Positions 34,555 to 34,720 of a DNA stretch of 63,901 nt are shown in pieces. A program made the position numbers and the translations under genes. The notes beneath the pieces were generated by a model that worked only from the letters and a program-made list of their open reading frames with translations, had not been told where the DNA came from and ran no database searches. The number at the start of each line of letters is the position of its first letter. Position 1 is the stretch's first letter. The stretch is from a virus. The stretch is from the IMG/VR virus record IMGVR_UViG_3300036768_000681, positions 1-63,901 of that record; one strand, written 5' to 3'.

Positions 34555-34620
34555 CTGGGGAAGTTTTGCAAGGAGAAAGGTTTCGCCCCAAGCGAAGTAT
34601 CTCCTTGCGTCACCACCAGC
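34555..34620 (-). ncRNA. Y-RNA-like RNA 3, in the leader of the Ro60 gene
   Basis: A 66-base element with CTGG/CCAG, bulged U, GG/CC, internal loop UGAC/AAAACUU, a perfect 9-bp stem GCAAGGAGA/TCTCCTTGC and an inner hairpin TTCGC-TTGGG-GCGAA. It begins about 13 bases after the predicted transcription start and ends 25 bases before the Ro60 ATG, so it is the 5' leader of the Ro60 mRNA or an RNA processed from it. Confidence 0.75.
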
Positions 34621-34639
34621 AAAATTTCAATTACTGATG

Positions 34640-34720
34640 CAAATTTAGTAAAGCAATAACAACTTGTCAAGTTTTTGTTTGTAAGAAAATTCTTACACGC
34701 TTGTAGGATTTTACTTACAA
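34640..34720 (-). promoter_or_regulatory. Promoter with paired dyads for Y RNA 3 and Ro60
   Basis: On the minus strand TTGACA (34665-34670) and TAAATTTG (34640-34647) are spaced 17 bp to the hexamer, an exact TAnnTTTG box. Upstream lie two dyads of the TTGTAAG...CTTACAA type (34679-34697 and 34701-34720). This is the same control design as at 43.5, 43.95 and 45.1 kb. Confidence 0.78.

Follow-up and report, generated by a model that had tools for sequence, protein, structure and literature searches.

The Ro60 gene of a tailed phage is preceded by a genuine short Y RNA that very probably forms the 5' leader of the Ro60 mRNA. Y RNAs are small partner RNAs of Ro60, an RNA-quality-control protein. 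We analyzed a 63.9-kb virus record (the window, 63,901 nucleotides in full), the genome of a tailed phage that encodes RecT and a replication initiator. On its minus strand we found, in order, a promoter, a short Y RNA (Y1), the Ro60 gene, two more Y RNAs (Y2 and Y3), the run TTTTTTT, and a terminator-like hairpin. An earlier note on this DNA mentioned neither Y2 and Y3, directly 3' of Ro60, nor the promoter-side palindromes. The features of the locus are:

34701-34720, no strand: distal palindrome of the TTGTAAG-N6-CTTACAA class, one mismatch, centered 40.5 bp upstream of the -35
34679-34698, no strand: proximal palindrome, centered 18.5 bp upstream of the -35
34640-34670, minus: promoter, from consensus match and palindrome sharing (TTGACA at 34670-34665, 17-nt spacer, TAAATTTG at 34647-34640)
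34555-34619, minus: Y1, short Y RNA without a tRNA-like module, predicted Ro60 5' leader (model R1, fold, covariation)
34568-34576, minus: 3' arm of the Y1 stem, UCUCCUUGC; the first 8 nt also complement the Shine-Dalgarno (SD) region
34536-34543, minus: SD region of Ro60, CAAGGAGA
33153-34529, minus: Ro60/TROVE protein, 458 aa (Pfam TROVE, 1e-24; PHROG 850, 9.5e-48)
33065-33139, minus: ARAGORN "tRNA-Cys", reinterpreted as part of Y2 (Rfam YrlA)
33006-33134, minus: Y2, YrlA-type with a permuted tRNA-like module, about 18 nt past the Ro60 stop codon (Rfam YrlA, model R2)
32931-32997, minus: Y3, second short Y RNA, followed by TTTTTTT at 32930-32924 (model R1, sequence)
32847-32871, minus: intrinsic-terminator-like hairpin 3' of Y3 (1 found versus 1.1 expected)

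Three Y RNAs around a phage Ro60 gene

The protein encoded downstream from Y1 is a Ro60 homologue. Its TROVE match was above the curated Pfam cut-off, and a profile of the Ro60 family (A1) matched Xenopus Ro60 (1YVP, 7.5e-12) and the Deinococcus radiodurans protein Rsr (2NVO, 6.1e-11). The TROVE domain is joined to a C-terminal vWA-like domain, and the sequence contains a DTSGSM motif.

Y1 has the canonical shape of a Y RNA. Read on the minus strand, upstream of the ATG, it runs CUGGUGGUGAC-GCAAGGAGA-UACUUC...UCUCCUUGC-AAAACUUCC-CCAG. Taken alone, its 65 nt folded with an outer stem (CUGG/CCAG), a core in which GGUGGUGA lies opposite UUCCC, and a long stem of 9 bp (GCAAGGAGA/UCUCCUUGC), with the conserved UACUUC present. 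The minimum free energy was -26.8 kcal/mol (z = -3.5), and none of 200 shuffled sequences was equally stable. Relatives came from a Ro60 search and from a pattern scan of viral contigs, with the nearby Ro60 confirmed by tblastn. In an alignment of nine short Y RNAs from which the window sequences were left out (A3), 96.3% of cells were paired, 10 of 12 pairs had compensatory changes, and covariation was 0.963 versus 0.275 in shuffles; the corresponding values for alignment A4 were 97.2%, 11 of 12, and 0.933 versus 0.223. A covariance model built from A3 (R1) found only two sites in the whole window, Y1 at 34619-34555 (46.8 bits, E = 1.2e-10) and Y3 at 32997-32931 (47.6 bits, E = 7e-11). Y1 thus has the covarying outer stem, core, and longer stem of bacterial Y RNAs and adjoins a TROVE gene. 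A search of Rfam 15 with Y1 matched no family, as might be expected of a chance hairpin or a transcription-related stem upstream of Ro60. However, the independent model and the two further Y RNAs at the same locus leave such a reading with practically no likelihood, and we conclude that Y1 is a short Y RNA, well beyond chance, as the earlier note had proposed at these coordinates.

In a longer leader, folded without constraint, a 5' hairpin that rivals the outer Y stem was slightly preferred, by about 2 kcal/mol in the ensemble. Because of this competitor, whether the Y fold forms inside the leader may hinge on Ro60 or on precisely where the RNA begins.

Y2 belongs to the YrlA type. It matched the Rfam YrlA model (RF02553) over its full length (52.2 bits, E = 2.5e-10, below the gathering threshold of 69) and was also matched by our broader model R2 (E = 4.2e-7). 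Its apical part is the circularly permuted tRNA-like module typical of YrlA, a module that Y1 and Y3 lack. Unlike Y2, Y1 and Y3 are not matched by this Rfam model, but the three share a core consisting of a GGUGGUGA-like element, UACUUC, and pyrimidine-CC. The tRNA-Cys called by ARAGORN at 33139-33065 was rejected as a tRNA since it is a portion of Y2, and the permuted module of YrlA-type Y RNAs is a likely source of false tRNA annotation.

Transcription of Y1 and Ro60

The promoter ahead of Y1 is one of six in the window that share a palindrome. By itself, TTGACA-17-TAAATT (10 of 12 consensus matches) is weak evidence in an AT-rich genome. However, the palindrome TTGTAAG-N6-CTTACAA occurs at ten sites in the window (20 strand matches versus 1.0 expected), and all ten are 18-52 bp upstream of an exact TTGACA. 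The sites (13638, 14625, 34679/34701, 43519/43541, 43915/43937, and 45108/45131) mark six of the 58 TTGACA hexamers in the window (13677+, 14664+, 34670-, 43500-, 43976+, and 45168+), five of which have a TAnnTT-type -10 at 17-18 nt. The palindromes of the other five promoters are approximately 28-30 and 50-52 bp from the -35, roughly one helical turn further than those of the Y1-Ro60 promoter. The palindromes probably define a phage regulon of which Ro60 is a member, and their position upstream of the -35 suggests that they bind an activator.

Transcription very probably begins about 13-16 nt before Y1, at 34635-34632, and continues into Ro60, given that the promoter belongs to the palindrome-marked set. 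The predicted start from the TTGACA promoter, placed about 13 bases ahead of the Y fold in the earlier note, held, as did the 25-nt distance from the end of the fold (34555) to the Ro60 ATG (34529); the SD region is 11 nt from Y1. The sequence after Y1 is UUAAUAAUAAA, which lacks a T-run, and nothing resembling a terminator hairpin was found before the ATG. Since no terminator intervenes and a credible promoter lies upstream, Y1 is very probably the 5' leader of the Ro60 mRNA, again in agreement with the earlier note. The same interval bears on the reading that Y1 is an independent gene with its own 3' end and that Ro60 is made from a different, shorter transcript. T-runs do follow Y RNAs in some relatives (e.g., L043 and L120) and follow Y3 in the window. 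However, Y1 has neither a T-run nor a hairpin, and on the minus strand no promoter-like site was found from 34619 to the ATG; we consider a separate Y1 gene quite improbable.

Y2 and Y3 appear to be parts of the same transcript. No promoter-like site adjoins them after the Ro60 stop codon, and the hairpin at 32871-32847, weak on its own, is the sole terminator-like hairpin in the region from 32.8 to 35.0 kb.

Y RNA placement across Ro60 loci

Y RNAs upstream of Ro60 are common in phages. We sampled Ro60 loci from viruses (80) and from bacteria or MAGs (80), added the pattern loci, and catalogued their Y RNAs with model R2. Of 100 non-duplicate Ro60 loci, 92 were preceded by a Y RNA on the same strand, a fraction that describes phages better than bacteria because the bacterial loci were largely chosen for upstream hits. 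Many of these Y RNAs are arranged in tandem, the median gap between neighbors being 17 nt, and arrays comparable to that in the window precede Ro60 in dozens of phages. In 38 of the 92 loci (25 clusters at 60% protein identity), the last Y RNA is 9-57 nt before the ATG, and in several relatives it ends 9-30 nt before it. Judging from these comparisons, the placement of a Y RNA in the leader is real and recurs in many viruses: phage Ro60 genes are mostly accompanied by Y RNA arrays, the last member of which would often be the Ro60 leader. Named or cultured phages with Y RNA matches near Ro60 include Xanthomonas phage 10KY502B, Caulobacter phage CcrColossus, Brevundimonas phage Kikimora, csAssE-Sib, and Rhizobium phage RHph_TM39; in CcrColossus, a Y RNA array precedes the TROVE gene.

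Ro60/Y RNA function does not require the leader position, because most of the Bacteroidota loci examined have their Y RNAs downstream of Ro60, and in many loci of the jumbo-phage type the distance upstream exceeds 300 nt.

Strong promoter matches are directly ahead of the first Y RNA in four loci (L033, L038, L023, and L024). Over the catalogue, promoter-like sites before the first Y RNA were mildly enriched (6 of 88 versus 3.0 expected), which was too weak to be taken as a general rule.

Several loci had unusual features. In L006 (126-541, minus strand), four Y RNAs upstream of Ro60 are on the opposite strand, in divergent orientation. A long Y-like RNA of approximately 210-280 nt is upstream of Ro60 in L005 (1625-1915) and in L044, L050, L053, L059, L075, and L102 (at about 2570-2925), and several of these loci are from large phage genomes; its outer stem is GCAAAC/GTTTGC, its core contains GAGATACTTCG, and its conserved insert has no Rfam match. 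In Xanthomonas phage 10KY502B (L229), a tRNA-Thr annotated beside Ro60 (2331-2398) is inside a Y RNA match (2329-2456), indicating that at least some of the tRNAs annotated close to Ro60 in phages belong to Y RNAs.

Phage Y RNAs have been mentioned before, and abundant Y-like RNAs were proposed for CKA15, a relative of Listeria phage P100 (PMC12282133). In P100 (L239), model R2 found no Y RNA between 21 and 31 kb, and gp165, considered as a TROVE protein, was rejected because it is DUF2828/DUF7788 instead. That proposal lends no support here.

Possible roles of the leader Y RNA

We think it reasonably likely that these genes make up a compact Ro ribonucleoprotein operon of the phage, combining a shared transcript, processing, Ro60 binding, and a palindrome-binding factor. 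A single transcript would contain the Ro60 message with Y1 in the 5' leader and with Y2 and Y3 toward the 3' end. Ro60 would bind all three Y RNAs while still nascent, and nucleases would cut or trim the AU-rich single-stranded spacers while the Y folds were protected by Ro60, such that the leader Y1 would be released as an ordinary Ro60 ligand. A phage-encoded factor would set transcription through the promoter-side palindromes. The three Y RNAs, Ro60, the promoter class, and the terminator-free interval from Y1 to the ATG come from sequence and comparison; from these we infer co-transcription, processing, binding by Ro60, and an activator (or repressor). Against a single transcript, weak promoter-like matches within Ro60 (e.g., 33370-33342, 10 of 12) could drive Y2 and Y3 separately, and the enrichment of promoter-like sites before first Y RNAs is only mild. 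The earlier note had offered two roles for the leader, and of these the release of both an RNA and an mRNA from one transcript fits best, because Y2 and Y3 follow the stop codon without an adjoining promoter-like site and because dozens of phages have such arrays. We favor processing for the further reason that Y2 and Y3 appear to be on the same transcript and that Y RNAs flank either side of Ro60, depending on the lineage.

The other role, autoregulation of Ro60 translation by the leader, was not supported. One form of it is a pairing switch, in which the 3' arm of Y1 pairs with either its own 5' arm or the SD, thereby opening or closing the ribosome binding site (RBS). The sequence UCUCCUUG is complementary to both GCAAGGAGA and the SD CAAGGAGA, and in the window the SD was unpaired at 0.85 in the Y fold versus 0.49 without constraint. 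The best single candidate was L024 (879-980, minus strand), in which the apical loop of the leader Y RNA carries a 13-nt complementarity to the SD (-23.2 kcal/mol). Among 21 loci with an SD and a near Y RNA, the mean duplex energy of own pairs was better than that of swapped pairs (p = 0.005), but the longest-run score was not (p = 0.10). Of 20 foreign Y RNAs, two fit the window RBS equally well or better, making the window's own Y RNA third of 21, and therefore purine-rich stems explain the pairing. In addition, the state with anti-SD paired to SD (-31.6 kcal/mol) compared poorly with the Y fold (-35.3 kcal/mol) and the free ensemble (-37.4 kcal/mol), making the SD-sequestered window leader about 6 kcal/mol (5.7) worse than free, and the complementarity was absent from L004 and most other loci. 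Pairing between the leader and its own RBS was not conserved across the loci, and the window was unexceptional in the swap test. We rejected the anti-SD switch as a general mechanism: there are matches of 8 nt in the window and 13 nt in L024, yet the swap test fails. That such a switch operates at this locus is very improbable.

A steric form of autoregulation, in which Ro60 bound to the leader blocks loading of the 30S subunit such that free Ro60 beyond the amount of Y RNA would repress Ro60 translation, is unlikely but fares better. Y1 is close to the SD and ATG, as are the last Y RNAs of the 38 loci within 60 nt of the ATG, and geometry indicates that at gaps of 9-30 nt the footprint of a 30S subunit would reach the Y RNA. 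The Ro60-binding core is retained in leader Y RNAs to a similar degree as in other Y RNAs (median 43.1 versus 47.2 bits, p = 0.10), which is consistent with Ro60 binding and not diagnostic of regulation. The short Y type was enriched at the last position (Fisher p = 0.0096 before correction); however, special placement of short Y RNAs at the ATG did not hold once related loci were clustered (p = 0.05-0.16). Further, the gap between Y RNA and ATG is similar to that usual between neighboring Y RNAs (median 17 nt), and many loci, including most from Bacteroidota with their downstream Y RNAs, have no Y RNA near the ATG. In ribosomal-protein-type autoregulation, the leader mimics the protein's natural RNA ligand; the Y leader element differs in that it may itself be the free ligand. 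It could conceivably be both free ligand and cis sensor, setting the level of Ro60 and keeping the stoichiometry of Y RNA to Ro60, a combination that we regard as doubtful. If true, this dual role would extend across many phages with a near-ATG Y RNA, and a regulatory leader would make a simple feedback loop between an RNA chaperone and its partner RNA.

The joint encoding of Ro60 and Y RNAs is a known arrangement. The Salmonella rsr-yrlBA-rtcBA operon also unites Ro60 and Y RNAs (PMC7790460). Its name order sets the Y RNAs after rsr, whereas the phage Y1 precedes Ro60, and it has RNA-repair genes and RtcR control where the phage has its own promoter palindrome; among the neighboring phage genes checked, we saw no RtcB or RtcA. 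D. radiodurans Rsr is likewise a Ro60 orthologue with a Y RNA (PMC4726728; PDB 2NVO) but, unlike the phage system, is chromosomal and stress-linked. Deletion of Ro60 proteins causes Y RNA levels to fall (PMC4726728).

Apart from the Ro60 locus, Pfam gave no match for the protein at 32284, the one tested from a group of similar proteins of 170-180 aa that start with MC(L/I)... and are scattered over the window, at 14090, 32284, 40531, and 45750.
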